The translations under genes and the position numbers were made by a program. Below are positions 14,946-54,898 of a stretch of 64,000 bases of DNA, piece by piece (positions within the stretch are counted from its first letter, which is position 1; each line of letters opens with the position of its first letter). A model generated the notes under the pieces. That model ran no database searches. It was not told the origin of the DNA and saw nothing but the letters and a program-made list of their open reading frames with translations. The stretch lies in the IMG/VR virus record IMGVR_UViG_3300021356_000012, positions 1 through 64,000 of that record; one strand, 5' to 3'. The stretch is from a virus.

Positions 14946-17900
14946 GTGTCAGCATCGAGCATTCCACTAAAAATCAAAAATTCGAATGGTGACCTACAGG
15001 AATTCACTCCGGCGGAAGAGAACTATCTTGCGTTCGCAGTGGGACAAGCATTGGCGTCTGCAGCGTCCAATGATGTCGGTAATATAAGTTTAACTGGTAA
15101 CGTGAACATTGGTTCTTTCGTTGACACCTTCTATAATGAGGTCACCGGAACTCACCCAGCTTCACAAATAACTTCATCTACTACAACTACTACACTAACT
15201 CAGGTGGGTGGTCCAGCAGATGAATCCGGTGCAAACTTTGTACGCCCTGTAGGATACTACGACGGAACTAACCCTGGCTTCTACGAAATGGTAGACCCAG
15301 ACGTAACCGCGTTAGCCAATCGTGTTCTGAGTAATCTTGCACAGAATGATTACGTAGGAACTTTTAAACTAGCATCTTCCAGCCCAGGCGCTGATTACAC
15401 ATTGTTCATAGGAAATGTGTTTCAGGATACCCGTGGGGATGGAACATCAACTTCTTACAACATTTATCTACGTAACAATATGTCTGCGATTGCGGCAGTT
15501 CGTCCAGTTGCGACTCGTTACGACGTTAATGGAGACTTCGACGGTTTCCAAGAGATGAGTGATGCACAAATCCAATACACTATTGGTCAGCGCATCAAGA
15601 CTCTACGTGCGACTTCAGGTAACATTGGTTCATACCAGTTGCGTTCTTCAACGCAAGGTGTACCTACTGCCCCAGGCACTTGGAAGTCCGTAGGCTCTGC
15701 AATCAACACTACTCGTGAAATTGCAGACCAGTCATATGCTCGTACTCGTAACTCTGCATATGTACGTACTCGTGTTTCTTCATACACTCGTGACCGTACC
15801 TCTACATACGCCCGAGTTTCTACTCGTACCAGTACTCGCGACTTTGCAGGTAACTACGTAGGTAACTATACTCGCGATTTCACAGGTAACTACTCACGCA
15901 ACTTTGCGGGTGAGTACACAGGTGACTTCGTAGGTAACTATTCTCGCACTCGTAACAGTGCATATTCACGTGACCGTGTGACTAACTTCTCACGTACTTT
16001 TACTGGCGAATACATCCTAAACCGTCAGTCAACGTATACTCGTGTACGTCTACAGGCGTTCACTGGTGGATTTACTGGTTACTATTCTCGTGCACGTGTC
16101 TCTGTCTATACTCGTAACAGAATAACAGATTTCGCAGGATACTACACTCGTAACCGTGTATCCACATATGCCCGTGGCCGTGTTTCTTCTTACGCAGGTA
16201 CTTACTCACGCAACCGCGTTAGTGCCTATGCAGGAACTTACACACGTACTCGTGTATCATCTTACTCAGGAACATACGCTCGTACTCGTAACTCTGCATA
16301 TGCAGGGACTTACACGCGTACACGCGTTTCTGCGTACTCAGGTACTTACTCACGCACACGCGTTTCTGCATATGCTGCAGATTATACTCGCGTTCGTGCG
16401 ACTAACTACACTCGCGACCGTGTAACTAACTTTGCAGGTGTTTACTCACGCGCACGTGTATCGACATATGTTCGCAACCGTGTTACAAACTTTGCGGGTA
16501 ACTTTATTGGTAACTATGCTCGTAACTTCGTAGGAAACTATGCTCGCAACTTCGTAGGAAACTACGCACGTGCGTTCGCTGGTGACTACGTAGGTAATTA
16601 CGCTCGTACTTCTACTCGCACATCAACTCGTACTCGTTACTCGGCTTATGCACGTACTTCAACACGTACTCGTGTATCTGCTTACACTCGCGACCGTGTT
16701 ACAAACTTTGCGGGTAACTTTATTGGTAACTATGCACGTGATTTCGTTGGAAACTTTGTAGGTAACTACGCACGTAACTTTGCTGGGGACTTTGCAGGTA
16801 ACTATGTTGGTAACTATGCAAGAGACTTCGTAGGCGATTTCGTAGGTAACTATGCACGTAACTTTGTTGGTAACTACGGCGGTAACTTCGTCGGTAACTA
16901 TGCAACTACATTTACTGGTGACTTCGTAGGTAACTACGCTCGCGGTTTCGTTGGAAACTATGCACGTAACTTTGTCGGTAACTACACTAGAAACTTTGCC
17001 GGTAACTTCGTAGGTAACTACTCTCGTGGCTTCGCAGGAAACTATGGCGGTAACTTCGTTGGTGATTATGCACGTACTCGTGCGACCAACTATTCGCGTA
17101 ACCGTGTTTCTGCGTACAGCCGTACTCGTGCAACCAATTACACCCGTACTCGTAACTCTGCGTACACTCGTACGTCTACTCGTACTCGTTACAGTGCATA
17201 TGCACGTACTTCGACTCGTACGTCAACTCGTACTCTAAGTTACACTCGTACATTGTACTACACTGGTAACTACGCTCGTGCGTTTACTCGTGATCGTACT
17301 CAGACATTTACTGCAACTGGTACCTACACTCGTACTTTATACTACGCGGGTGACTTTACTGGAAACTACACCCGTAATGTTACTTACACTGGTAACTATA
17401 CCCGTACATTGACTTACACTGGTGACTTCGTAGGTAACTACACTCGTGGTGTCACTTATACTGGTAACTACACTCGTGGTGGCCCAGTAACATATACTGG
17501 CGACTATATTCGTTACCAGAACCCATATGACACCGTAAACTATTATATCGGTAACTATATCGGCGGTGGTGCTACCTACACTGGTAACTTTGTTGGTAAC
17601 TACACCAGCGCATATGCAGGCGCAGGTGGTGGTCGAGTATCTTCATATACTCGATATGTTTATCCAACTGGTCTACAGTATTATACTCGTTCGTTCGGTA
17701 CAACCACCTATTATACGCGTACATCGACTCGTACGTCAACTCGTAACTCAACTGGTGCAGGCACGGATTATACTGGTGCATACACTCGTTCGGCAGCGTT
17801 GTACTACACTGGTAACTATATCGGTACTGTTACTGAGACTTACACTCGTAACCGCGCTGCGACACTAGACTACACTCGTACTCGTGTCACTAACTACACT

Positions 17901-19646
17901 GCAACAGGTACGTATACTCGTGGCCGTGGGGCGACACTAGACTACACTCGTAACAGTACTCGTACTTCAACCAATACTGGTTACTACACACGTACATTGT
18001 ACTATGTCGGCAACTTCGTAGGTAACTATGCGCGTAACTACGCCGCAGACTACACCCGTACTGGTTACTACACACGTACTGGATACTACGCAGGTGACTT
18101 CGTAGGAAACTATGCGCGTGGATTTGCAGGAAACTTCGTAGGAAACTATGGTCGTTCATTCGTTGGCGATTACGTAGGTAACTTTGTTGGTAACTATGCG
18201 CGTACATTCGTTGGTGATTACGTAGGTAACTTTGTTGGTAACTACGCACGTACTTCAACACGCACATCGACTCGCACACGTTACTCAGCATATGCCCGTA
18301 CACGCGTAACTAACTACGCTGGCGCATACTCACGTACTCGTACATCAGCCTACGCTCGTACTCGTAACTCGGCTTACTCGCGTACTCGTGTAACTAACTA
18401 CGTTGGTGATTTCACCCGTACGTCAACTCGTACTTCGACTCGTAACCGTTACTCTGCATACGCAAGAACTCGTGTAACTAACTACGTTGGTGATTTCACT
18501 CGAACATCTACTCGTACGTCAACTCGTACACGTGGTTCTGCTTACGCACGTACTCGTGCAACCAATTATGTTGGTGATTTCACCAGAGACCGCGTAACTA
18601 ACTTCGCAGGTAACTTCGTAGGTAACTACAGCCGTAACTTCGCAGGTGACTTTGTAGGAAACTACGCTCGCGCATTTGCAGGTGACTTCGCTGGTAACTT
18701 CGTTGGTGAGTACACTCGTACGTCTACTCGTACTCGTTACAGTGCATACGCAAGAACTCGTGTATCTGCATACAGCCGTACTCGTGGTTCCGCATATACT
18801 CGTGACCGTGTAACTAACTTTGCAGGTGACTTCGCAGGAAACTATGCACGTACATTCACTGGAAACTACTCACGCAACTTTGCGGGTAACTTCATCGGTG
18901 ATTATGTCGGTGACTTCACTGGTAACTACGTAGGCAACTACAACCGTGGTTTCGTCGGTGAGTACACTGGCGCATATACTCGTCAATTCGGTGGTAACTA
19001 TGTGGGTAACTACAGCCGCGGATTTGTTGGTGAGTACACTGGTGCATATTCTCGTAACTTCGGTGGAAACTACGTAGGTAACTACACTCGTGGATTCGTT
19101 GGAGAATACGCAGGTACTTACAACCGTACATTCGCAGGTGAGTACACTCGTGGGTTCACTGGTAACTATGCAAGACAGTTTGCAGGCGACTTCGCTGGTA
19201 ACTACTCTCGCACGTTCGCTGGAGAATACGCAGGAACTTATAACCGTGACTTCGTAGGTGACTTTACTGGTAACTATGCACGTACGTTTGCAGGTAATTA
19301 CATCCGCAACCGTGTCTCTGCATACGCTGGCAACTTCATCGGAAACTACACTCGTGACTTCATCGGTAACTACTCACGTAACTCAACCGATGTATTCTCA
19401 CGTACTCGCGTCTCTGCATACGCAAGACTACGTACCTCTGCTTACTCTGCAGATTATGGTAGAACTCGCGTATCAACTTACGCAGGTAACTATACTGGCG
19501 ACTACGCCCGAGACTTCACTGGTAACTACTCACGTGATTTCACTGGTAACTACAGTCGCGCATTTGTCGGTAACTATGTTGGTGCAACTCTCCAGCCTAC
19601 TTACCAGACGGTTGAAGGTTATACTCTATACGTAAGGATTGCATAA
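14946..19646 (+). CDS. Giant tetrapeptide-repeat virion protein
   Basis: This 1,566-residue protein starts at a GTG. The first ~260 residues are non-repetitive. They begin SIPLKIKNSNGDLQEFTPAEENYL, split here as SIPLKIKNSNG and EFTPAEENYL; I recall such N-termini in virion proteins of marine T4-like phages. From S263 to G1546 the chain is a continuous 4-residue repeat: x-(F/Y)-x-(G/R), such as NFVG or NYAR, interspersed with R-centred units such as TRVS. The C-terminal ~20 residues are unique. Arg and aromatics are abundant and acidic residues scarce. A late promoter lies upstream and a terminator downstream. A fibre or other elongated structural role is likely; nothing in the sequence suggests catalysis. 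Confidence 0.75.
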   Translation: MSASSIPLKIKNSNGDLQEFTPAEENYLAFAVGQALASAASNDVGNISLTGNVNIGSFVDTFYNEVTGTHPASQITSSTTTTTLTQVGGPADESGANFVRPVGYYDGTNPGFYEMVDPDVTALANRVLSNLAQNDYVGTFKLASSSPGADYTLFIGNVFQDTRGDGTSTSYNIYLRNNMSAIAAVRPVATRYDVNGDFDGFQEMSDAQIQYTIGQRIKTLRATSGNIGSYQLRSSTQGVPTAPGTWKSVGSAINTTREIADQSYARTRNSAYVRTRVSSYTRDRTSTYARVSTRTSTRDFAGNYVGNYTRDFTGNYSRNFAGEYTGDFVGNYSRTRNSAYSRDRVTNFSRTFTGEYILNRQSTYTRVRLQAFTGGFTGYYSRARVSVYTRNRITDFAGYYTRNRVSTYARGRVSSYAGTYSRNRVSAYAGTYTRTRVSSYSGTYARTRNSAYAGTYTRTRVSAYSGTYSRTRVSAYAADYTRVRATNYTRDRVTNFAGVYSRARVSTYVRNRVTNFAGNFIGNYARNFVGNYARNFVGNYARAFAGDYVGNYARTSTRTSTRTRYSAYARTSTRTRVSAYTRDRVTNFAGNFIGNYARDFVGNFVGNYARNFAGDFAGNYVGNYARDFVGDFVGNYARNFVGNYGGNFVGNYATTFTGDFVGNYARGFVGNYARNFVGNYTRNFAGNFVGNYSRGFAGNYGGNFVGDYARTRATNYSRNRVSAYSRTRATNYTRTRNSAYTRTSTRTRYSAYARTSTRTSTRTLSYTRTLYYTGNYARAFTRDRTQTFTATGTYTRTLYYAGDFTGNYTRNVTYTGNYTRTLTYTGDFVGNYTRGVTYTGNYTRGGPVTYTGDYIRYQNPYDTVNYYIGNYIGGGATYTGNFVGNYTSAYAGAGGGRVSSYTRYVYPTGLQYYTRSFGTTTYYTRTSTRTSTRNSTGAGTDYTGAYTRSAALYYTGNYIGTVTETYTRNRAATLDYTRTRVTNYTATGTYTRGRGATLDYTRNSTRTSTNTGYYTRTLYYVGNFVGNYARNYAADYTRTGYYTRTGYYAGDFVGNYARGFAGNFVGNYGRSFVGDYVGNFVGNYARTFVGDYVGNFVGNYARTSTRTSTRTRYSAYARTRVTNYAGAYSRTRTSAYARTRNSAYSRTRVTNYVGDFTRTSTRTSTRNRYSAYARTRVTNYVGDFTRTSTRTSTRTRGSAYARTRATNYVGDFTRDRVTNFAGNFVGNYSRNFAGDFVGNYARAFAGDFAGNFVGEYTRTSTRTRYSAYARTRVSAYSRTRGSAYTRDRVTNFAGDFAGNYARTFTGNYSRNFAGNFIGDYVGDFTGNYVGNYNRGFVGEYTGAYTRQFGGNYVGNYSRGFVGEYTGAYSRNFGGNYVGNYTRGFVGEYAGTYNRTFAGEYTRGFTGNYARQFAGDFAGNYSRTFAGEYAGTYNRDFVGDFTGNYARTFAGNYIRNRVSAYAGNFIGNYTRDFIGNYSRNSTDVFSRTRVSAYARLRTSAYSADYGRTRVSTYAGNYTGDYARDFTGNYSRDFTGNYSRAFVGNYVGATLQPTYQTVEGYTLYVRIA
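15732..19583 (+). repeat. 12-bp-register tetrapeptide repeat array (321 units)
   Basis: The array spans codons 263-1546, which is 1,284 residues or exactly 321 tetrads. Class A units read (N/D/E)-(F/Y)-(A/V/T/S)-(G/R). Class B units read (T/D/N)-R-(V/N/A/Y)-(S/T) and are nearly always followed by a class A unit beginning A, N, S or T. Around residues 845-975 the phase slips (units such as TGNY and TRTL), then returns to the original register. Synonymous variation between units is extensive, so the protein pattern is conserved more than the DNA. Confidence 0.85.
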
Positions 19647-23414: not shown

Positions 23415-26400
23415 ATGTCATTTAGACAGATTAAATCACCTGCTCTAGCCGATAAGGCGGTCATCAATACCAAACTTGACGAAAGTGCGGTACAAGGACA
23501 GAGCACCCTAACGGGAATGACCTCACCGGACCAGTGTTTTACGCTGTTGTACGATGTAGGTACAGACTCGTTGAAGAAGATCGCGTCAGACGACTTCTTC
23601 GGATCGTTCTCAACTGACGATCTAGTGGAAGGGTCTAACCTATACTTCACCGATGCACGTGCAAAAACTGCAGTTGCACAAGACATCGCTGATGCGGTAG
23701 CGGTAGAAGAAGCTCGCGCACTAGCGGCAGAAGGCGTACTACAATCTGCAATCGATGCAGAAGTAGTTCGTGCAACTGCAGCTGAGCAAGCAAACGCTAC
23801 AGCAATCTCGAATGAGGTTACCCGAGCAACTACTCGTGAAAATGCAATCGAAACTGCGTACCAATCTGCAGACGCTGCATTGTCACTACGTATTGACAAC
23901 ATCCTTTCAAATACAGATGAAGTTGCACTAAATTCACTTGCAGAAATCGTTACTGCGTTCGAAGACGCGGATGACGTACTAACTGCATCAACTATCGCAA
24001 ACTCAAACGCAATTCAGGCAGAGGTTACTCGTGCGACTGCGGCGGAAGCTGCAAACGCAACTGCAATCGCGAATGAGACTACTCGCGCAACTACCGCAGA
24101 AGCAGACCTACAGTCACAAATCAATACTGAAGTAGCTGCTCGTATCGCAGGCGACAACGCACTAGATACACGTTTGACTACAGAAGAAGGTAATGTAGAC
24201 AACCTACAATCAGACCTTGCTGATGAGATTTCACGTGCAACAGCGGCAGAAGCGGTTCTAACTCAGGACCTTGCAGACGAAGTAACTCGTGCAACAGCGG
24301 CAGAAGCTGCGAACGCTCAGTCTATCCAAGATGAAATCACTGCACGTGCAGTAGCGGATACTCAAGTCCGTACTGACATGACTGCATTGATTAACTCTGG
24401 TGATGCTGCAACTCTTGCAGCTGCAAAGGCAAACGACGACCTACTAATCGGTGACGCAACTGTTGATGGTACTGCTAGCAACACGGTAACCGACCGCATC
24501 GCAACTGCTAAGGCAGAGGCAATTGCAGACGCAGACGCATCTGTAGCGACAGAGCAGGCAGCTCGTGAGGCGGCTGACTCAGACCTACAAGCAGGTCTTG
24601 ATGCAGAAATTGCACGTGCAACTGCAGCAGAAGGTGTACTAACTACTGACCTAGCAGCCGAGGTAACTCGTGCAACTGGTGAAGAGTCGCGCATCGAAGC
24701 GAAAGTTGACAACATCATCTCTAATACTGACCCAGCTGCGTTGGATTCATTGACAGAAATTGTCGATGCATTCCAGAGCGTTGATAGTGACATTCAGGCA
24801 CTTGTCAACTCTAACACAGTTGCAATCAGTAACGAAGCAACAACTCGCGCATCTGCAGATACAGTTCTACAGGGTAACATCGACGCAGAGGCCGCAACTC
24901 GTGCAGCTGCAGATACTACTCTACAACAGAACATCGACGCAGAAGAAACTGCACGTATTGCAGGCGATGCGGCAACTCTTGCATCTGCCAAGGCGTACAC
25001 TGACCAAGAAGCAGATTCTCATCTAGCAGCTGCAATCGCACACGCAGACGCACAAGACGCGGCACTAATCGGTGACGCATCTGTTGACGGTACTGCAGGC
25101 AACACTGTTACTGCACGTATCGCAACTGCAAAGAGCGAAGCAAACGCATACACTGACGCAGAAATTGCAGCGGAAGCGGCAACTCGTCAGGCAGATGATG
25201 ACGCACTATCTCTACGCACCACTTCACTAGAAGGTCGTATGGATACTGCAGAAGCAGACATCACTGCAGTAGAAGGTGACTTGGCAACTGAAGTTGCAGC
25301 TCGTACTTCGGGTGACGCAACACTTCAGGCAAATATCGATGCAGAAGAAACTGCACGTATTGCAGCTGACAACACTCTACAACAAAACATTGACGCCGAA
25401 GAGGCACGTGCAGTAGCTGCAGAGGCAGACCTACAAGGTCAAATCACTGCAGAAGTTACTCGTGCAACTGGCGTTGAAGCAGGACTACGTACTGATACAG
25501 ATGCAAACACTGTAGGTGTTGCGACTAACGCAACTAACCTTGCAAACGAAATCACTCGTGCGCAATCAGCAGAGTCTACTCTACAATCTAACATTGATGC
25601 AGAAGCAGTAACTCGTGGAAACGCGGATACTACTCTACAAGCTAACATCGATGCAGAAGTTACTCGTGCAACAGGTGTCGAGGCAGGTCTACGTACCGAT
25701 ATCGACGCAAATACTGCTGCAATTGTTGGTAACGACTCAGACATCGCGGCTGAAACTGCGGCTCGTATCGCAGGTGATGCATCACTACAGTCTCAGTTGA
25801 ATGCAGAGATTACTCGCGCCACTGGCGAAGAGTCACGTATCGAAGGACGTTTGGACACTGAGATTGCACGTGCAACTGGTATCGAAGCAGGTCTACGTAC
25901 TGACGTAGATGCAAACGCAGTAGAAATCGCAGCAGTAGATTCAGACCTATCTGATGAAATCGCTCGTGCAACTGCGGCAGAACTTGTACTAACTCAAGAC
26001 CTAGCGGCAGAGGTAACTCGCGCAACTGGTGTTGAGGCAGGTTTACGCACTGACGTTGACTCAGTAACTACTCGTGTTGATGCAATTGTCGGTACTTCAC
26101 CAGAGACTTTAGACACTCTACAAGAAATCGTTGCTGCATTCGAAGACGCAGACAGTGACCTACAAGCAGTTATCTCTGCAAACTCAGGTCGTTTGACTAC
26201 TAACGAATCAGACATCGACGCACTAGAAGTTCGCGCAACTGACCTTGAGTCACGTGCAACTCTAGTAGAAGGTCGTGCAACTGCACTAGAAACTGAGCAG
26301 TCTGCTCAAGCAGGTCGCTTGACTGTCAACGAAGGTGACATCGATGACCTAGAAACTAAGGTTGGTACTGCAACTCTACAAACTGTTGCAACTGACCTAT

Positions 26401-28883
26401 CAGCTGCAATCAACGAGATTCACGCAGAACTAGACACTGAAGCAGGTCACGTCGATACTCTACAATCAGAGATGGACGCTGTTGAAGGTCGCGCTACTGT
26501 CCTAGAAGGACGTGCAGACGGTCATGATTCAGACATCGCAGCTCACAACGTTCGTTTGAACGGTGCAGAGCAGGATATCGATGACCTAGAATCAATCGTC
26601 GGTACTGCAACTCTAGCAACTGTTGCAATCACTACTACTGAAGCTATCAACGAACTACACAGTGAAGTTGATATCAACACTGGTAAGGTTGCTACTCTTG
26701 AGTCGGAGATGGACGCAGTTGAACTACGTGCAACTTCACTAGAGAACCGCATGGCGGGTGTTGACAGTGACCAAGTTGTACAGGACGGTCGTCTAACTGT
26801 TAACGAAAGTGACATCGATTCGCTAGAAGCGAAGATGGGTACTGGTGCATTCGCAACTGTTTCACAAACTACTGTAGGCGCAATTAACGAACTACACGGT
26901 GAAGTAGACGCGGCTGTCGCACGTATCGATGGTCACGATTCTGACGTAGGTGATCTGCAAGCGCAAATCACTGCGGAAGTTAACCGTGCAACTACTCAAG
27001 AAGGTCTAATCCGTAGCGAGTTCGCTACAGAAGACACTGCGGTCCGTGCAGAATTCGCGGCGGCAGATGCAGTAGTATTGGCGTCAGCAGCGGCAGACGC
27101 AACTTCTAAGGCGGATACTGCGGAAGCGAATGCGAAAGTATACGCAGACGGTATCGTTGCTGCTGAAGAAACTGCACGTGAGAACGCGGACACGGTACTA
27201 CAGTCTGCAATCGATGCAGAAGTTACTCGTGCACAGTCTGCTGAGGCGACATTGTCATCTCGTGCAACTGCACTAGAAACTGAAATGACTGCAACTCAAG
27301 CAGGTGCTGGTCTTTCAACTGCAGGTAACTACATCACTCCAACTGGTACTTCATACCTAGACGCATCTGTCTCTCTAGCAGACGCAGACGCGAAGCTAGA
27401 CGCTGCTATCGCGGCAGAAGTATCACGTGCATCGGGTGTTGAGGCAGGTCTACAAACTCAAATCACTAACGAAATCGCAGCTCGCATCGCGGGTGACAGT
27501 GATCTTCAGTCACAGATTGATGCAGAAATCGGTCGTGCAAGTGGTGTTGAGAGTGACCAGGCGGCACTTATCCAAGCGAATGCTGACGCAATCGCGGCGG
27601 AAGAAAGTGCACGTCAGGCTGCAGATTCAAATCTACAGTCACAAATCGACTTCATTACGTCAAACACTGATTCTGCGGCACTAGACTCGTTGACAGAAAT
27701 CGTTGCGGCATTCCAGTCTGCAGACGGTACTCTAACTGGTCTAATCTCTCAGAACCAGACAGACATCGCAACTAACACTGCGGGTCTTGCACAAGAAATC
27801 ACCGACCGTATTGCAGGCGATAACGCAGTACGTGGTGAGTTCGCTGCGGCAGATGCGGGTCTACAGACTCAAATCGATGGTAAGGTAAGCAAGTCAGGCG
27901 ATTCAATGACCGGCGATCTTGCAATGGGTGGAAACAAGGTTTCTGGTCTTGCAGTCGGTACTGATTCTGCTGACGCAGTTAACGTAGGTCAATTGACTTC
28001 AGGTTTGGCTGCACAGCACATTTCACAGTTCAGTACAACTGACCTTGCTGAAGGTGACAACCTATACTACACTGACGCACGTTCACGCGCTGCATTCTCT
28101 GTAACCGACGTAGACGGTGAAGGTAACGTTTCATACGATAGCTCAACTGGTGTTCTATCAGTATCAACTGGTAAGGCATTCCTAGAGTTAGAAGATGTAA
28201 GCGAGTCTTCATTCACTGGACACGAAGGTTTCGTTGCACGTGTTAAGACTGACGGTTCGGCGATTGAATTCATCGACCCAACTCAGTTGGCATTTAACAA
28301 CGCACAACGTCAAACTATGAATGGTGACGGTGCACAGACTACATTCGCATTGAACTTCTACACGCAAGACCAAAACGCGATTGTATTCGTAGGTGGTGTT
28401 ATTCAGGATCCGTCCACTCACTACTCTATCGATGCTGCAAACCAAACTATCACGTTTAACAGTGCAATCCCTGTAGGTACTCAGGCGGTTGTTATTGCAC
28501 AGTCAACTAACTCAGTCGGCGTACTAGACCCAGGCTCAGTTGGCGTTGAAACATTCGCTGACAACATCAAGCCTGCAATACAGGGTGTAGACATTGTAGT
28601 TGGTACTTCACCAGCTGTAGTATCTTCATTCAACGCTACTGTTTCTCGTGCAGCCAAGTTCATCGTAACTGTTGACCTAAACGGCGAACACGAAGTACGC
28701 GAGTGTATGGTTATCCATGATGGCACTACTGCATACATAAATGAGTACGGTATTGTATTTACTGGTTCATCTCTACTAGGTGATACAGACGTACAAATGA
28801 GCGGAGACACTGTCGAGTTAACTTATGAGGCAGTTTCGGCTGGCGCAGTTGTTAAGGTTGTCAAGACTACTGTAGACGTATAA
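23415..28883 (+). CDS. Giant coiled-coil tail fibre protein
   Basis: This 1,822-residue protein has an N-terminal domain with DDLVEGSNLYFTDAR near residue 72. A long stalk follows (about residues 90-1490) of repeated TRATAAEA, LQSQIDAE and AARIAGD heptad-like units, a strong trimeric coiled-coil signature. The module SNTDxxALDSLTEIVxAF occurs four times in the stalk, and VGTATLxTV with AINExHxE three times. Near residue 1494 it has SGDSMTGDLAMGG, a common fibre motif, then TTDLAEGDNLYYTDAR. A C-terminal beta-rich domain of ~200 residues (about 1625-1822) completes it. It is probably a long tail fibre subunit. A terminator follows. Confidence 0.75.
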   Translation: MSFRQIKSPALADKAVINTKLDESAVQGQSTLTGMTSPDQCFTLLYDVGTDSLKKIASDDFFGSFSTDDLVEGSNLYFTDARAKTAVAQDIADAVAVEEARALAAEGVLQSAIDAEVVRATAAEQANATAISNEVTRATTRENAIETAYQSADAALSLRIDNILSNTDEVALNSLAEIVTAFEDADDVLTASTIANSNAIQAEVTRATAAEAANATAIANETTRATTAEADLQSQINTEVAARIAGDNALDTRLTTEEGNVDNLQSDLADEISRATAAEAVLTQDLADEVTRATAAEAANAQSIQDEITARAVADTQVRTDMTALINSGDAATLAAAKANDDLLIGDATVDGTASNTVTDRIATAKAEAIADADASVATEQAAREAADSDLQAGLDAEIARATAAEGVLTTDLAAEVTRATGEESRIEAKVDNIISNTDPAALDSLTEIVDAFQSVDSDIQALVNSNTVAISNEATTRASADTVLQGNIDAEAATRAAADTTLQQNIDAEETARIAGDAATLASAKAYTDQEADSHLAAAIAHADAQDAALIGDASVDGTAGNTVTARIATAKSEANAYTDAEIAAEAATRQADDDALSLRTTSLEGRMDTAEADITAVEGDLATEVAARTSGDATLQANIDAEETARIAADNTLQQNIDAEEARAVAAEADLQGQITAEVTRATGVEAGLRTDTDANTVGVATNATNLANEITRAQSAESTLQSNIDAEAVTRGNADTTLQANIDAEVTRATGVEAGLRTDIDANTAAIVGNDSDIAAETAARIAGDASLQSQLNAEITRATGEESRIEGRLDTEIARATGIEAGLRTDVDANAVEIAAVDSDLSDEIARATAAELVLTQDLAAEVTRATGVEAGLRTDVDSVTTRVDAIVGTSPETLDTLQEIVAAFEDADSDLQAVISANSGRLTTNESDIDALEVRATDLESRATLVEGRATALETEQSAQAGRLTVNEGDIDDLETKVGTATLQTVATDLSAAINEIHAELDTEAGHVDTLQSEMDAVEGRATVLEGRADGHDSDIAAHNVRLNGAEQDIDDLESIVGTATLATVAITTTEAINELHSEVDINTGKVATLESEMDAVELRATSLENRMAGVDSDQVVQDGRLTVNESDIDSLEAKMGTGAFATVSQTTVGAINELHGEVDAAVARIDGHDSDVGDLQAQITAEVNRATTQEGLIRSEFATEDTAVRAEFAAADAVVLASAAADATSKADTAEANAKVYADGIVAAEETARENADTVLQSAIDAEVTRAQSAEATLSSRATALETEMTATQAGAGLSTAGNYITPTGTSYLDASVSLADADAKLDAAIAAEVSRASGVEAGLQTQITNEIAARIAGDSDLQSQIDAEIGRASGVESDQAALIQANADAIAAEESARQAADSNLQSQIDFITSNTDSAALDSLTEIVAAFQSADGTLTGLISQNQTDIATNTAGLAQEITDRIAGDNAVRGEFAAADAGLQTQIDGKVSKSGDSMTGDLAMGGNKVSGLAVGTDSADAVNVGQLTSGLAAQHISQFSTTDLAEGDNLYYTDARSRAAFSVTDVDGEGNVSYDSSTGVLSVSTGKAFLELEDVSESSFTGHEGFVARVKTDGSAIEFIDPTQLAFNNAQRQTMNGDGAQTTFALNFYTQDQNAIVFVGGVIQDPSTHYSIDAANQTITFNSAIPVGTQAVVIAQSTNSVGVLDPGSVGVETFADNIKPAIQGVDIVVGTSPAVVSSFNATVSRAAKFIVTVDLNGEHEVRECMVIHDGTTAYINEYGIVFTGSSLLGDTDVQMSGDTVELTYEAVSAGAVVKVVKTTVDV

Positions 28884-28966: not shown

Positions 28967-31900
28967 ATGAGTACAAACAAAAAGTTCAGAGTACAGAACG
29001 GTATCGATGTCACTGGTGAAGTGGTTGTCGGTGGTGTAACTGTAATTGATGCTGACGGTACCGTTGTTTCCGATTTAAGTGACCAGTTGGTCCCTCTTCA
29101 AAATGAAGTCGCTGCACTAGAGGTCTCAATCGAAAACATCCTTGGTACGTCACCAGAAACTCTTGATACCCTTCAAGAAATTGTTGCTTCTTTCCAAGGG
29201 GCAGACGGTGATTTACAAACTCTAATCACCACTAACGCAACCGGCATTGCAACTAATGCCACTGCAATAACTGACGAAGAAACTGCTCGTGTTGCGGCTG
29301 ACGCTGCACTTCAAACAGCAGTGGATGCGACAAACGCACGTACATCTGGTATCAGTACATCTTCAGGTTCGTCTAACATCCAGATGACCGCTGAAGTTGA
29401 CATGGACAGTAACGCAGTTACTAACATGGCTGACCCAAGTTCTGCACAAGATGCAGCAACTAAGGCATACGTTGATGCGGCAGATACTACTCTACAAGGT
29501 AACATCACTACAGAGGCATCATCTCGTGCATCTGGAGACGCGAACCTACAGAGTCAGGTTGACGCACTAAGCGGTAACGTTGGCGGTTTGTCAACTACAG
29601 ATATTCCAGAAGGTTCTAACCAGTATTACACTGACGCACGTGTTCGTGCAGCAGTTCAGGCTGGTACTGGAATGTCATACGAACAAAGCACTGGTGAGTT
29701 CTCAGTCAGTCTATCTGGCGGAGACGGTATCTCTGTATCGGGTGGAACTATATCCATTGATGGTACTGCAATTGCGCAGGACCTAATTCCATCTGCAGAC
29801 GATACTTACAGTCTAGGTTCACCAGATAAGGTCTGGAAAGATGTTTACATCGGCCCAGGGTCTTTATACCTAAACGGTACTAAGATTCTTGAAGACAATT
29901 CTGGTACAATCACTATGTACGCAGACGCAGGTCAGAATCTATCGTTCGGTGCAACCGGCGGTGGTACTATCGACTTGAACGCTGGTGACGAAAGTATCCA
30001 GATCAAGTCAGACCTAGTATTGTCAGCAGGAGAGACTATTTCTACTGTCGGTGGGGTTGCAACTCCATTCGGTGGTCAAATCGACATGCAGACTCACAAG
30101 GTCGTTAATGTTGGTACCCCGACTGCAGACGCAGATGCCGCAACTAAGGCATATGTTGATGGTCGTGTAGATGCAGGCTCAATCTCCGGAGATAAGACTT
30201 TCTCTAATAACGTTGTCGTTTCAGGTAACTTAACTGTTCAGGGTACTACTACCACTGTAAACAGCGAGACTATCTCTCTGGCAGATAACATCATCGACGT
30301 TAACTCAAACGTTACTTCAGGTAACCCAACTGAAAACGCTGGTCTACGTGTTATGCGTGGTGACTCTCCAGCATCACAGTTGCGTTGGAACGAAGCGAAC
30401 GACTATTGGGAAACTTTCGATGGTAGTGATTGGACTAAGGTCGCACTATCTACGACTGACCTTGCAGAAGGTTCTAACCAATACTTCACTGACGCACGTG
30501 CTCAGTCAGCGGTTGCAGGAGATATTTCTTCGGCAGTTGCAGCTGAGGCAGTTCTACGTGCGGACGCGGACACTGCAGAAGCAAGTGCTCGTGCATCAGC
30601 TGATGCATCACTACAATCTGATATCGACGGTGAAATCGCTCGTGCACAGGGTGTAGAGGCAGGTTTGGATTCAGACATCTCAGTTAACGCTGCAGGTGTT
30701 GCATCTAACGCGGCTGCAATCGCACAGGAAGTGACTGACCGTACTGGTGCAGTTGCAACTGTACAGTCTAACGTTGACGCAGAAGAAGCGGCGCGTATCG
30801 CAGCAGATGGTGGTCTACAGACTCAAATCACTGCACTAGACGCGAAGCATGATAGTGACCACGCTGCAATGATTTCATCATTGGCGGGTGAGACTACTGC
30901 ACGTATCTCAGGTGATGGTAACCTACAGACGCAAATCGACGCGGTCGAGGCTGCAGTAGAAGCAATCACTAACGGCTCAGTTGCATCACTAGACACTCTA
31001 GTAGAAGTTGTTAATGCATTCGAGAATGCGGACAGCGACCTACAGGCAGTTATCACTGGTAACACTTCAACTATCTCTGGTGTCAACACTCGTGTTGGTA
31101 CTTTAGAAGGTGAGATGGATGCGGTTCAGGCATTGGCCTCAACTAACTCTTCTCTATTGGCTAACCACGGTCCACGCATCTCTACTAACGAGACTGACAT
31201 TTCTTCACTACAGACTTTCTCTGGTGAAGGAACTGTACTAGGTACTGCTGCAGTATCACTTGCTGCCGCAATCAACGAGATTCACTCTGAGTTGAACTCT
31301 GTTGTTGCAGACCTAGGCGTTGAAGTAGGTCGTGCGACTGGTGTCGAGGCAGGTTTAGATTCAGACATCTCTGCTGAAGCTGTCGCTCGTGCAAACGCAG
31401 ACACAAGTCTACAGTCTCAGATTTCTTCTGAGATTGCACGTGCAACTAGCGCGGAATCAGGTCTTTCAGGTGATATCTCAGCTGAGACTACTGCACGTGT
31501 TCAGGGTGACGCGAACCTACAATCACAAATCGACTCACTATCTACGTCTATAACTGACGAAGGTAATGGTCGTGACAGTGATGTATCAGACCTACAGGCA
31601 CAAATCAATAGCATCTTGTCTAACACAGACCAGGCTGCAATTGACTCGTTGACTGAGGTTGTCGCTGCATTCCAGAGCGCAGACAACTCACTAGGTACCC
31701 TAATCACTCAAAACCAGACTACTCTAGGCCTACACGGCGGACGTTTGGATGCGATTGAGGCATGGGATACAGATAACGTCTCAGAAGGTTCATCGAACCT
31801 ATACTTCACTGAGGCTCGTGCACGTGGATGTGTATCTGCAGACGCAGGTTCATGCATCGACTACAATGAGTCAACTGGTAAGTTCTCACTAGACGTATCT

Positions 31901-32017
31901 GAAGTTGAGAGTGCGGTAACTCCAGACAACGCGACAAACGCGGATAAGTTAGACGGACAACACGGTTCACACTACCGTATTGACATCTACGATATCAACG
32001 GTACTGTTGTTAACTAA
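28967..32017 (+). CDS. Second coiled-coil tail fibre protein
   Basis: This 1,016-residue protein is related to its 1,822-residue neighbour. It has three LDxLxExVxxF modules, three TTD-type (E)GSNxYxTDAR motifs, and stretches of LQSQI and TRATGVEAG coiled coil. Two copies of a fibre motif ending in DAATKAYVD lie near residues 150-170 and 375-395. The segment around residue 400-490 (TFSNNVVVSGNLTVQGT, then LADNIIDVNSNV) is a classic T4-like long-fibre element. The C-terminus is a short acidic region. It and the previous gene are likely partner subunits of a long fibre. No late box is visible directly before it. Confidence 0.75.
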   Translation: MSTNKKFRVQNGIDVTGEVVVGGVTVIDADGTVVSDLSDQLVPLQNEVAALEVSIENILGTSPETLDTLQEIVASFQGADGDLQTLITTNATGIATNATAITDEETARVAADAALQTAVDATNARTSGISTSSGSSNIQMTAEVDMDSNAVTNMADPSSAQDAATKAYVDAADTTLQGNITTEASSRASGDANLQSQVDALSGNVGGLSTTDIPEGSNQYYTDARVRAAVQAGTGMSYEQSTGEFSVSLSGGDGISVSGGTISIDGTAIAQDLIPSADDTYSLGSPDKVWKDVYIGPGSLYLNGTKILEDNSGTITMYADAGQNLSFGATGGGTIDLNAGDESIQIKSDLVLSAGETISTVGGVATPFGGQIDMQTHKVVNVGTPTADADAATKAYVDGRVDAGSISGDKTFSNNVVVSGNLTVQGTTTTVNSETISLADNIIDVNSNVTSGNPTENAGLRVMRGDSPASQLRWNEANDYWETFDGSDWTKVALSTTDLAEGSNQYFTDARAQSAVAGDISSAVAAEAVLRADADTAEASARASADASLQSDIDGEIARAQGVEAGLDSDISVNAAGVASNAAAIAQEVTDRTGAVATVQSNVDAEEAARIAADGGLQTQITALDAKHDSDHAAMISSLAGETTARISGDGNLQTQIDAVEAAVEAITNGSVASLDTLVEVVNAFENADSDLQAVITGNTSTISGVNTRVGTLEGEMDAVQALASTNSSLLANHGPRISTNETDISSLQTFSGEGTVLGTAAVSLAAAINEIHSELNSVVADLGVEVGRATGVEAGLDSDISAEAVARANADTSLQSQISSEIARATSAESGLSGDISAETTARVQGDANLQSQIDSLSTSITDEGNGRDSDVSDLQAQINSILSNTDQAAIDSLTEVVAAFQSADNSLGTLITQNQTTLGLHGGRLDAIEAWDTDNVSEGSSNLYFTEARARGCVSADAGSCIDYNESTGKFSLDVSEVESAVTPDNATNADKLDGQHGSHYRIDIYDINGTVVN

Positions 32018-42994: not shown

Positions 42995-44272
42995 ATGAAT
43001 CAATCATTCGACAAATTGATCGAAAAGTGGTCTCCAGTTCTTAATGAAGAATCTGCGGGCACTATCACGGATCATCACAAGAAGGCTGTAACTGCAGCTA
43101 TCCTAGAAAACCAAGAACGCGCAATGATCGAAGAGCGCACTGCAATGTCTGGCTTCATCACTGAAGATGTAGCAGGTGGTGCGAACACTGGTTCTGCAGC
43201 GAACTGGGACCCAGTCCTAATCTCGCTAGTACGTCGTGCAATGCCAAACCTAATGGCGTATGACATCTGTGGTGTTCAGCCAATGTCTGGTCCAACTGGC
43301 CTAATCTTCGCGATGAAGTCACGTTACGGTTCAGGTAAGACTACTTCACCAGAAGCCCTATTCCAAGAAGCTGATACTGGTTTCTCTGGTCAAGGTGCTC
43401 ACCCTGCAGGCGAAGCGATGCCAACTGCATCTGCTGAGTCTCTAGGCGCAGGCGGTGTTGACGTTAACGGCAACCCATCCGGCGATTTCTCAGAGATGGG
43501 TTTCACTATCGAGAAGGCGACTGTAACTGCTAAGTCACGTGCATTGAAGGCGGAATACTCGCTAGAACTTGCACAAGACTTGAAAGCGATTCACGGCCTA
43601 GACGCTGAAACTGAGTTGGCGAACATCTTGTCAACTGAGATTCTAGCGGAAATCAACCGTGAAGTTGTTCACGCTATCAACTCTACTGCAATCCAAGGTG
43701 CAACTACTGGTAACATCAATGTCCCAGGCACTTTCGACCTAGACCTAGACGCTGATGGCCGTTGGTCTGCAGAGAAGTTCAAGGGTCTAGTTGTACAACT
43801 TGACCGTGAAGCAAACCAAATCGCGAAAGAAACTCGTCGCGGTAAGGGTAACGTCGTAGTATGTTCTTCTGACGTTGCAACTGCACTAGCAGCTTCTGGT
43901 ATGTTGGACTACACTCCAGCGATGTCTACTTCATTGTCAATCGACGATACTGGTAACACTTTCGCAGGTACTCTAAACGGTCGCATCAAGGTCTACATCG
44001 ACCCATATGCATCAGCTGACTACATCACTGTAGGCTACAAGGGTACTAACGCATACGACGCAGGTATCTTCTACTGCCCATACGTACCACTACAGATGGT
44101 CAAGGCAGTTGGCGAGAATGACTTCCAGCCACGTATCGGGTTCAAGACTCGTTACGGCATGGTGTCAAACCCATTCGTAGGTGCAACCCCACCAAGCGGT
44201 ATCGCACCAAACAACATCTACTACCGTTCATTCGCGGTAGCGAACATCATGGGTACTTCTGGTACTGTATAA
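42995..44272 (+). CDS. gp23: Major capsid protein gp23
   Basis: This 425-residue protein has the gp23 landmarks: NWDPVLISLVRRAMPNLMAYDI near residue 70 (split as NWDPVLISLV and RRAMPNLMAYDI), GVQPMSGPTGLIFAM-x-SRY near residue 92, and TVTAKSRALKAEYSLELAQDLKA near residue 175. The C-terminal part ends with RIGFKTRYGMVSNPF. It forms the hexamers of the head. T4 gp23 has 521 residues; marine versions are often shorter, as here. A UUCG terminator follows. Confidence 0.97.
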   Translation: MNQSFDKLIEKWSPVLNEESAGTITDHHKKAVTAAILENQERAMIEERTAMSGFITEDVAGGANTGSAANWDPVLISLVRRAMPNLMAYDICGVQPMSGPTGLIFAMKSRYGSGKTTSPEALFQEADTGFSGQGAHPAGEAMPTASAESLGAGGVDVNGNPSGDFSEMGFTIEKATVTAKSRALKAEYSLELAQDLKAIHGLDAETELANILSTEILAEINREVVHAINSTAIQGATTGNINVPGTFDLDLDADGRWSAEKFKGLVVQLDREANQIAKETRRGKGNVVVCSSDVATALAASGMLDYTPAMSTSLSIDDTGNTFAGTLNGRIKVYIDPYASADYITVGYKGTNAYDAGIFYCPYVPLQMVKAVGENDFQPRIGFKTRYGMVSNPFVGATPPSGIAPNNIYYRSFAVANIMGTSGTV

Positions 44273-51919: not shown

Positions 51920-52597
51920 ATGGAACTATCTAGTCGCACAGTTGATATCTTGCGTAACTTTGCGAGTATCAACCCAAACATTGTTGTCTCTGAGGGCAAC
52001 ACCCTGAAGACCATGTCTATTGCAAAGAACCTTGTTGCAAAGGCAGTCATCGAAGAATCGTTTCCTACCACTTTCGGTATTTACGATTTGTCTGAGTTTC
52101 TCTCAGTAATTAATCTGGTTGATAACCCAACTATCGAGTTTGGTGAGAACAATTGTTCTGTCCGTGATGGTAGTGGTCTTTCGTCTGTCCGGTACTTCTA
52201 CTCTGACCCAGAGATGTTGACCGCACCTAAGAAAGATATCGTTATGCCTGCTGCGGATGTCCAGTTTCTACTCACTAACGAAACACTAAGTAAGATAAAA
52301 CGCGCATCGGCTGCACTTGGTCACGATGAGATTAACATCCGACCTAGTAGTGGTGCAATCGAAATTGCAGTAGTTGATGGTGCGGATTCTACTTCTAACT
52401 CATTCTCTATCACTGTTGACGGTGAGTACCCCGAAGGTGCCGACTTCAACTATGTTATGAGTGTGGGTAACTTAAAATTGATTGGTGAGGACTATGAGGT
52501 CTCAGTGAGTAACAAGCTCATCTCAAACCTACGGTCTACCGAATCAGAAACCGAATACTTTATCGCATTAGAAAAATCTTCAACATACGGAGTATAA
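51920..52597 (+). CDS. gp45: Sliding clamp gp45
   Basis: This 225-residue protein is the size of T4 gp45 (228). The two-domain clamp fold is suggested by LSSRTVDILRNFASINPNIVV at the N-terminus, YDLSEFLSVINLV near residue 55, and FSITVDGEYPEGADFNYVMSVGNLKL near residue 157, split as FSITVDGEYPEG and NYVMSVGNLKL. It encircles DNA, tethers the polymerase gp43, and activates late transcription with gp55. It has a strong sigma70-type promoter. Confidence 0.9.
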   Translation: MELSSRTVDILRNFASINPNIVVSEGNTLKTMSIAKNLVAKAVIEESFPTTFGIYDLSEFLSVINLVDNPTIEFGENNCSVRDGSGLSSVRYFYSDPEMLTAPKKDIVMPAADVQFLLTNETLSKIKRASAALGHDEINIRPSSGAIEIAVVDGADSTSNSFSITVDGEYPEGADFNYVMSVGNLKLIGEDYEVSVSNKLISNLRSTESETEYFIALEKSSTYGV

Positions 52598-52910: not shown

Positions 52911-53165
52911 GTGAAACTAGATAAAGGTATTGCGAAAGAAACCTCAATACATGTGTTGATGGGGACAGTGATTAACTATCCCCTGAACATAGTTTTCCTA
53001 TATGTGATTATCGACATGTGGAATATCACCGACCCATTCTGGATATCAAATATTGTCACGCTTGGGTTTTCTATAGTCGCCTTCACTCGAATATACATAG
53101 TAAGGTCTATTGTAGAAAAAAGGAAATTACGCTCGAGTAGCTCAGCTGGCAGAGCATCGCATTAG
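52911..53165 (+). CDS. Small membrane protein whose 3' end overlaps the tRNA gene
   Basis: This 84-residue protein starts at a GTG. Two hydrophobic segments (about residues 15-37 and 43-64) should span the membrane, and TRIYIVRSIVEKRK follows. I recall a small two-helix protein of this type in cyanophages. From codon 74 to the stop the frame reads into the tRNA-Thr gene (RSSSSAGRASH), and the TAG stop at 53163-53165 is made of tRNA positions 33-35. The natural C-terminus was probably near RKL. No function is known. Confidence 0.6.
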   Translation: MKLDKGIAKETSIHVLMGTVINYPLNIVFLYVIIDMWNITDPFWISNIVTLGFSIVAFTRIYIVRSIVEKRKLRSSSSAGRASH

Positions 53166-53206
53166 TAATGCGAAGGTCGTCGGTTCGACCCCGACCTCGA
53201 GCTCCA
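53131..53206 (+). tRNA. tRNA-Thr, anticodon AGT
   Basis: The 76-base gene folds cleanly. The acceptor GCTCGAG/CTCGAGC has 7 pairs, the D stem is GCTC/GAGC, the anticodon stem TCGCA/TGCGA surrounds loop TTAGTAA, and the T stem is GTCGG/CCGAC with loop TTCGACC. CCA is encoded at 53204-53206. The anticodon is A34-G35-T36, so the codon is ACU. A34 in a threonine tRNA is unusual in bacteria, where G, U or C is normal. Thr codons in the fibre genes here are dominated by ACT. The gene overlaps the small membrane gene, and the AOX gene starts 7 bases behind it. Confidence 0.93.
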
Positions 53207-53213
53207 TTCACGC

Positions 53214-53795
53214 ATGACTAATAAACTATCAGATTGGTTCGCAAAGTCGATGACCGCGTTCTTTCGATTTTTCGCAGATACTTTTTTTCGTAAACGCTAC
53301 GGTCACCGTGCACTTGTTTTAGAAACAGTTGCAGGGGTCCCAGGCATGATTGGTGGGATGTTGACCCACCTAAAGAGCTTGCGTCGGTTACAACGTGGTA
53401 ACGGACACAAGATACACGAGTTACTTGCGGAGGCGGAGAACGAGCGTAAACACTTGATGTTCTTTATGGAGGTGGTACACCCATCGGTCCTAGAGAGATT
53501 CATCATCATTGTTGCGCAGGCTGTTTTCTGGCACTACTATCTCGTTCTCTACGTTCTCTTTCCGAAGACTGCACACCGTATGGTGGGTTACTTTGAAGAG
53601 GAAGCAGTACGAAGTTATGACGCGTACTTGGTGGAGATTGAGGAGGGTCGTATCGAAGACGTTCCCGCACCCGAGATTGCAATAGAATATTATGGATTAC
53701 TTGAGGACGCTAAACTGTCCGACATGATTAGATACGTTCGACGTGACGAAGAACACCACGCAAAGGTCAATCACGCCTACGCGGACGAAAATTAA
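53214..53795 (+). CDS. aox: Alternative oxidase (ubiquinol oxidase, AOX)
   Basis: This 193-residue protein has the full set of AOX di-iron ligands. These are E37 (VLETVAGVPGM), E77 and H80 (EAENERKHL), E129 (FEEEA), and E179 and H182 (RRDEEHH). The segments PAPEIAIEYY and KVNHAYAD also match ubiquinol AOX rather than the plastid PTOX type. AOX oxidises ubiquinol and reduces oxygen to water without pumping protons, at the inner membrane face. The short N-terminus and missing targeting sequence fit a bacterial or phage form. It lies just behind the tRNA with no clear ribosome site, so it may be expressed from a processed transcript. It is likely an auxiliary metabolic gene. Confidence 0.92.
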   Translation: MTNKLSDWFAKSMTAFFRFFADTFFRKRYGHRALVLETVAGVPGMIGGMLTHLKSLRRLQRGNGHKIHELLAEAENERKHLMFFMEVVHPSVLERFIIIVAQAVFWHYYLVLYVLFPKTAHRMVGYFEEEAVRSYDAYLVEIEEGRIEDVPAPEIAIEYYGLLEDAKLSDMIRYVRRDEEHHAKVNHAYADEN

Positions 53796-53953: not shown

Positions 53954-54898
53954 ATGAGTAAAGAGTTTTTGTGGGTTGAGAAGTATCGTCCTAAGACCGT
54001 CGCGGAGACTATCCTACCGGACGAACTAAAGAATACATTTCAGACCATTGTAAACGGTGGTGAAATTCCCAACATGATGTTTACGGGTACTGCAGGTACA
54101 GGTAAGACCACTGTGGCCCGTGCGATTTGTGAAGAGTTGGAACTTGACTACATCGTTATCAACGGTTCTGAAGAGGGTAACATTGATACCCTAAGAGGTA
54201 AGATAAAACAGTTTGCGTCGTCTGTCTCACTGTCCGGTGGGTATAAGGTGGTTATATTAGACGAGGCCGATTACCTCAACCCACAATCTACACAGCCGGC
54301 GTTGCGAGGATTTATTGAAGAGTTCTCTAAGAACTGTCGATTCATCATGACATGCAACTTCGAGAACCGCATCATTGACCCGTTGCACTCTCGATGTTCG
54401 AAGTACCAATTCAACTTTGACAAGAAAACTATGGCCGCACTGTGTGGTCAATTCATGGGTCGGTTGCGTATAATACTAGACACTGAGGGTGTCGCGTACG
54501 AGAACGATACTGTGGCTCAGATCATTATGCGTCATGCGCCAGACTGGCGACGTGTACTGAACGAGTGTCAGAAGGGTTCTATCTCAGGTACTCTGAATAA
54601 TCCAGTAGGATTAGATAGTGACGTATCCGACCCGTATACGGTATTATTTAACGCAATTCGCGAGAAGAACTTCAAACGAATGCGCACTTGGGTTGTAAAT
54701 AATATAGATATAGAACCTGTTGCGATCTTTCGTGGTATCTATGACAGAATGTACGAGTTTGTCTCACCGTCTAGCATCCCGCAGTTAGTATTAATACTAG
54801 GTGACTACCAGTATAAAAATGCGTTCGTGCAAGATCACGAACTAAACTTGGTTGCCTGTCTCACGGAAGTGATGGCAAACGTTGAGATCAAAGAATGA
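53954..54898 (+). CDS. gp44: Clamp loader large subunit gp44
   Basis: This 314-residue AAA+ ATPase has Walker A GTAGTGKT at residues 45-52, a DEAD Walker B at 103-106 and the SRC trans-arginine motif at 146-148 (HSRCSKYQF). It matches T4 gp44 (319 residues). With gp62 it opens and loads the gp45 clamp at primer ends. In T4 the gp62 gene follows directly; here a sulfotransferase gene lies between the two, starting 4 bases inside the gp44 end (ATGA). Confidence 0.95.
   Translation: MSKEFLWVEKYRPKTVAETILPDELKNTFQTIVNGGEIPNMMFTGTAGTGKTTVARAICEELELDYIVINGSEEGNIDTLRGKIKQFASSVSLSGGYKVVILDEADYLNPQSTQPALRGFIEEFSKNCRFIMTCNFENRIIDPLHSRCSKYQFNFDKKTMAALCGQFMGRLRIILDTEGVAYENDTVAQIIMRHAPDWRRVLNECQKGSISGTLNNPVGLDSDVSDPYTVLFNAIREKNFKRMRTWVVNNIDIEPVAIFRGIYDRMYEFVSPSSIPQLVLILGDYQYKNAFVQDHELNLVACLTEVMANVEIKE

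Follow-up and report, generated by a model that had tools for sequence, protein, structure and literature searches.

The window, by which we mean the whole 64,000-nucleotide stretch analysed, belongs to a T4-like phage, and among named relatives Phage C48C1 (OQ984149, Kyanoviridae) comes closest, with a nucleotide identity of 77% across 28% of the query. At the place considered here a gp45-like sliding clamp gene (51920..52597, + strand; phrog_223) is followed by a tRNA-Thr gene with the anticodon AGU (53131..53206, +), an alternative oxidase (AOX) gene (53214..53795, +) and a gene for a gp44-like clamp loader subunit (53954..54898, +). The clamp gene fixes the orthologous place from the upstream side and gp44 marks it downstream, while the oxidase gene is a downstream neighbour kept in many relatives.

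The AOX gene product matches PF01786 with 238 bits against a cut-off of 22.7, and carries the ExxH motifs ERKH and EEHH. A pattern search found relatives encoded in 105 IMG/VR stretches, and in the named phage collection the only match was in C48C1, where the gene is annotated as hypothetical. A family of T4-like phages in which a respiratory terminal oxidase has become fixed is worth a study of its own. A small ORF at 52911-53165 (84 aa, membrane-like, with a weak match to phrog_4276) enters the tRNA gene by 35 bases, and its stop codon falls inside that gene.

The only tRNA found by ARAGORN in the 64 kb window is tRNA-Thr(agt) at 53131-53206 (+), and the 70,140-base virus record holds no tRNA besides it. 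The Rfam tRNA model RF00005 matches 53131-53203 with 66.5 bits (gathering score 29), and the folding energy is below that of all 200 shuffled sequences (z -3.28). The acceptor (GCUCGAG/CUCGAGC), D (GCUC/GAGC), anticodon (UCGCA/UGCGA) and T (GUCGG/CCGAC) stems are fully paired, the anticodon loop reads U32 U33 A34 G35 U36 A37 A38 (UUAGUAA), and the molecule is complete, with CCA encoded in the gene. Scans for promoters and terminators around the gene gave nothing above chance. The base pairs G1-C72 and C2-G71 are identity determinants of tRNA-Thr in E. coli. Both are present in the window tRNA together with G35 and U36, and position 73, which, some species apart, has little weight in Thr identity (PMC9976931), is U. 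The locus is thus a genuine tRNA gene, as the first-pass annotation had proposed from the AGT anticodon; the tRNA scan that it had suggested as a check for a pseudogene returned a real tRNA, and a pseudogene or false call is ruled out by the ARAGORN call, the Rfam score and the intact paired stems.

C48C1 also has a tRNA-Thr between gp45 and gp44, but with the anticodon UGU. IMG/VR was scanned with the two neighbouring proteins, giving 80 loci for each, and complete gp45-to-gp44 stretches were found to hold a tRNA-Thr nearly always, with UGU in dozens of relatives. Among the scanned loci AGU occurs at this place only in the window and in five IMG/VR contigs (L002, L003, L004, L005 and L016) from five datasets other than that of the window, which rules out a sequencing or assembly error. 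All 21 stem pairs are formed in the tRNA-Thr of the window, of L002-L005 and of C48C1. In a UGU sister lineage (L018, L019, L021) a tRNA-Asp(GTC) directly follows the tRNA-Thr, and an oxidase gene was not found at the gp45-gp44 place.

In a 65-row tree of gp45 and gp44 combined, all A34 rows group together as one clade with support 88/47, nested within UGU rows and with the UGU contigs L019, L021 and L032-L035 as sister. This single clade is not firmly shown, and a tree of gp45 only is compatible with one or two anticodon changes. From its place and its closest sequences, the window tRNA is the positional orthologue of the UGU tRNA-Thr of the relatives, the closest non-A34 tRNA at the place being that of L047 (14/76 differences). 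Since relatives carry UGU at the same place and only this lineage carries AGU, U34 became A34 in the window lineage, probably once. This could not be seen in the first-pass annotation, made from the window alone, to which the UGU anticodon of the orthologous tRNAs was not visible. Capture of a host AGU tRNA is disfavoured, as both the place and the nearest sequences are those of the family's own UGU tRNAs.

The most divergent A34 member, L016, differs from the window tRNA at 11/76 positions, including three compensated pairs (6-67, 7-66 and 29-41), and retains UAGUAA. Because the stems have changed in compensated pairs and the anticodon has not, the gene has remained under structural constraint with A34 kept. 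These changes also bear on the proposal that the gene is decaying, or encodes a non-decoding RNA, with A34 as a mark of lost function. That one lineage has lost its original U34 would fit such decay, but the covariance score, the complete pairing of the stems, the encoded CCA, the kept Thr identity pairs and the compensated pairs by which L016 differs from the window all speak against it, and we regard it as extremely improbable.

A34 had been described in the first-pass annotation as typical only of tRNA-Arg(ACG) in bacteria, a view that does not hold. Among the matches listed for the AGU pattern in GTDB species genomes, most were from Lactobacillaceae, where tRNA-Thr(AGU) is common, and some from Mesoplasma, and ARAGORN confirmed 79 of 80 of these loci. 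In IMG/VR the pattern occurs in at least 120 stretches, and all 80 of the loci listed were confirmed. When position 34 was left open in a sample of 82 viral tRNA-Thr, U was found in 68, C in 8, G in 4 and A in 2 (about 2% A). A34 tRNA-Thr is accordingly uncommon in viruses, not new, and the idea that it is unknown in bacteria or phages is ruled out by the Lactobacillaceae and the IMG/VR stretches. One contig from a Maritimibacter MAG (L308, NZVC01000054) carries 24 tRNA genes, and A34 is present in five (Arg ACG, Ser AGA, Val AAC, Ala AGC and Thr AGU); the contig is probably viral and was placed in the bacterial MAG by binning.

Over the whole window, ACT makes up 53% and ACA 22% of the threonine codons. 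The share of ACT varies between genes, from below 20% in several genes of replication and packaging to 31/33 in the gene for the major capsid protein gp23 (42995..44272, +; PF07068), which contains 31 ACT, 1 ACC, no ACA and 1 ACG. Codon counts per gene also bore out the claim that the giant fibre genes, with tetrapeptide repeats or coiled coils, use mostly ACT. The three giant Thr-rich tail proteins have 66-79% ACT: 161/203 in a coiled-coil tail or fibre-like protein of 1822 aa (23415..28883, +), 76/101 in an adhesin-like tail protein of 1016 aa (28967..32017, +) and 152/232 in a TYTGNYTR-repeat protein of 1566 aa (14946..19646, +), the last of which had no PHROGs or Pfam match. In the capsid gene and the three giants, the share of U-ending codons in other boxes is only 0.36-0.49.

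ACT enrichment alone is not diagnostic, because relatives with the UGU tRNA likewise favour ACT in the capsid and giant genes. The feature peculiar to the window is that ACA has been lost at aligned threonine sites: the capsid genes of C48C1, G008 and G010 have ACT/ACA counts of 16/15, 11/17 and 13/16, and that of the window has no ACA. Discordant aligned sites were therefore counted as window ACT with relative ACA against the reverse. For the capsid gene and the three giants, a set chosen after the codon usage of the window had been seen, the ratio was 470:160 over 10 relatives, in one direction in every relative, and the same comparison gave 208:627 for Ala, 206:198 for Val, 144:223 for Ser, 31:35 for Pro and 95:117 for Leu. 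All other genes were near balance for threonine (395:371). Against the UGU sister contig G007 the ratio was 50:17 in the capsid and giant genes and 34:49 elsewhere (p 3.7e-5), with 70:211 for the other boxes, and the general U3 of G007 is above that of the window.

Since the four genes had been picked with the usage of the window in view, the test was also run on all shared genes with no choice of genes. Threonine exceeded the other boxes in 12/12 relatives, which are mutually dependent, with odds ratios of 1.5-2.7 and p from 0.03 to 4e-7, a weaker result than that of the four-gene test. The shift per gene grows with the number of threonines (Spearman 0.49, p 0.004). Among 96 distinct capsid genes that of the window is the top outlier in ACT:ACA given the other boxes (z 3.46). 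Among the A34 contigs only the window includes gp23, and none of the other five was among the matches listed in a scan with the capsid protein. Discordances between T- and C-ending threonine codons were near balance, that is, ACC is unchanged. The loss of ACA is specific to the threonine box and concentrated in Thr-rich virion genes.

The genes for sheath, tube and portal, which are also virion genes, show little shift, and those for the large terminase and SbcD are shifted in the reverse direction. The shift therefore seems to track threonine demand, as in the capsid and the giants, better than membership of the virion as such: the decoded codon ACU is enriched beyond relatives with a UGU anticodon in the high-demand Thr-rich virion genes, sheath, tube and portal excepted. 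The earlier suggestion that the tRNA matches the ACT bias of the phage and supplies late fibre synthesis is in part sustained by the ACT shift in Thr-rich virion genes, but the shift is strongest in the capsid gene and is not confined to fibres.

It may be asked if the anticodon changed neutrally or under some other pressure, with drift of the lineage, the codon preference of the host or local composition behind the difference between ACA and ACT. A single lineage is involved, and the ACT:ACA of the relatives' capsid genes spans 0.24 to 1.0 although no A34 tRNA is known in them. Capsid genes that lack ACA are also seen where U3 is higher, again in phages from which no A34 tRNA is known, and other boxes of the window have moved too, Gly and Arg towards U in places. 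The Ala codons are strongly shifted towards GCA (54%) where relatives use GCT, a direction opposite to that of the threonine shift, perhaps through a further phage tRNA encoded in the half of the genome that the record lacks, or through a host effect. On the other hand, the general U3 of the window is lower than that of the relatives, not higher, the shift is specific to threonine and concentrated in Thr-rich genes, and A34 was retained while the stems changed. The same association of A34 with ACT is found in unrelated IMG/VR contigs, where ACT:ACA relative to other boxes has a median of 0.02 with A34 only and of -0.27 with U34 only (p 4e-4; 46 and 56 contigs, with short stretches and statistics that ignore kinship). 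On balance such an indirect origin is unlikely.

Another cause of the anticodon change could be escape from a host nuclease that cuts the anticodon of UGU tRNAs, with codon use following. We know of no UGU-tRNA-cutting nuclease here, and ACA, which would not be tolerated if the UGU tRNA were missing, still accounts for more than a fifth of the threonine codons and is not reduced in low-demand genes. Change of the anticodon loop as an escape from nucleases is a proposed reason for phage tRNAs, and was considered and excluded for phage Sf14 (PMC12482277). For the window we consider it very unlikely.

How A34 is read depends on its modification, and the first-pass annotation had allowed for either editing to inosine by host TadA or direct pairing with U. 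When AGU was placed on another tRNA body in E. coli, TadA did not deaminate it, and only the anticodons ACG, AUG and AAG were modified at A34 (PMC11066159). TadA editing is therefore unlikely for the window tRNA as well, although the phage host may differ from E. coli, and direct pairing of A with U is the more plausible reading. The E. coli AGU tRNA decoded ACU at 10.7% and ACC at 1.4%, that is ACU about eight times as much as ACC, and decoding of ACA and ACG was undetected (PMC11066159). An unmodified A34 predicts a gain of ACU, a loss of ACA and no change in ACC, as seen in the window.

Deamination of A34 by host TadA, or by a relaxed relative of it, would instead give a general threonine supplement that reads ACU, ACC and ACA. 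Most genome-encoded A34 tRNAs are indeed converted to inosine (PMC11066159), and the A34 tRNA-Leu of Lactobacillales is I34 (PMC13249217). However, inosine would keep ACA readable and raise ACC, in conflict with the 0/33 ACA of the capsid gene and the unchanged ACC, and E. coli left AGU unmodified. No match to the TadA-like deaminase families PF14437 and PF00383 was found in the 70 kb record, a fragment, though a host enzyme would suffice. We judge this explanation improbable.

Taken together, the data point to a working phage tRNA-Thr descended from the family's UGU tRNA-Thr at the same place. The change from U34 to A34 would have moved its reading from ACA (and ACG) to ACU, with A34 presumably kept unmodified, and the intact G1-C72, C2-G71, G35 and U36 suggest that charging is most likely by host ThrRS. 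If expressed, the tRNA would provide extra capacity for decoding ACU while the capsid protein gp23 and the Thr-rich giants of the tail, the top consumers of threonine, are made, and ACA would have been replaced by ACU in their genes in step, with decoding demand as the putative driver of both changes. We think it fairly probable that the gene is such an ACU-dedicated tRNA with unmodified A34, derived from the family's UGU tRNA and supporting virion protein synthesis, with ACA recoded in step. The stricter claim, that a general threonine tRNA was turned into an ACU-only decoder with a genuinely unmodified A34 and that the capsid and giant tail genes were recoded from ACA to ACU as a result, is given about an even chance. 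The switch was probably single and one lineage cannot show cause, so the change in the tRNA and that in the codons could coincide by chance.

The reason why phages keep tRNAs is still debated, and most of the evidence consists of correlations over whole tRNA sets and many phages. A role in late supply has been argued for another phage (PMC12482277). Here close relatives differ in the wobble base of one and the same gene at one place, and a single codon box responds, mostly in the genes that need most threonine, which makes the decoding-supply idea testable by one base. If the proposed reading is true, nature has here run an experiment with one base and one codon box, and its outcome shows that selection on phage tRNAs acts through the decoding that virion proteins demand. 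Unmodified-A34 tRNAs have been called very rare (PMC11066159), and the window tRNA is a natural candidate for one.

The closest known counterparts are the tRNA-Thr(UGU) genes of C48C1 and the IMG/VR relatives, which like the window gene have gp45 and gp44 as neighbours, lie on the same strand and comprise 76 bases. Their loops are equal to those of the window tRNA except for U34 in place of A34, their stems differ by compensated changes and, unlike the window, the phages that carry them keep ACA in their capsid genes. The other IMG/VR phage-like contigs with tRNA-Thr(AGU) also encode the tRNA in a virus and show the same direction of ACT bias, but their genomes are only distantly related, and they mostly hold multi-tRNA arrays, many of them with tRNA-Thr(UGU) as well. 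The tRNA-Thr(AGU) of Lactobacillaceae and Mollicutes are chromosomal cellular tRNAs whose likeness to the window tRNA lies in the anticodon; a passage of PMC11066159 cites unmodified A34 in Mycoplasma. tRNA genes are known to evolve by anticodon switching (PMC3868979), and a wobble-base change in tRNA-Leu(IAG) accompanies genome-wide synonymous recoding in Lactobacillales (PMC13249217), whereas a limited search of the open-access literature found no published switch of this kind at an orthologous phage tRNA. Both of these systems couple an anticodon or wobble-base change to adaptation or synonymous recoding, as in the window, but they concern cellular genomes, and the window case involves a single tRNA of a phage, with one codon box affected, mainly in virion genes of high demand.
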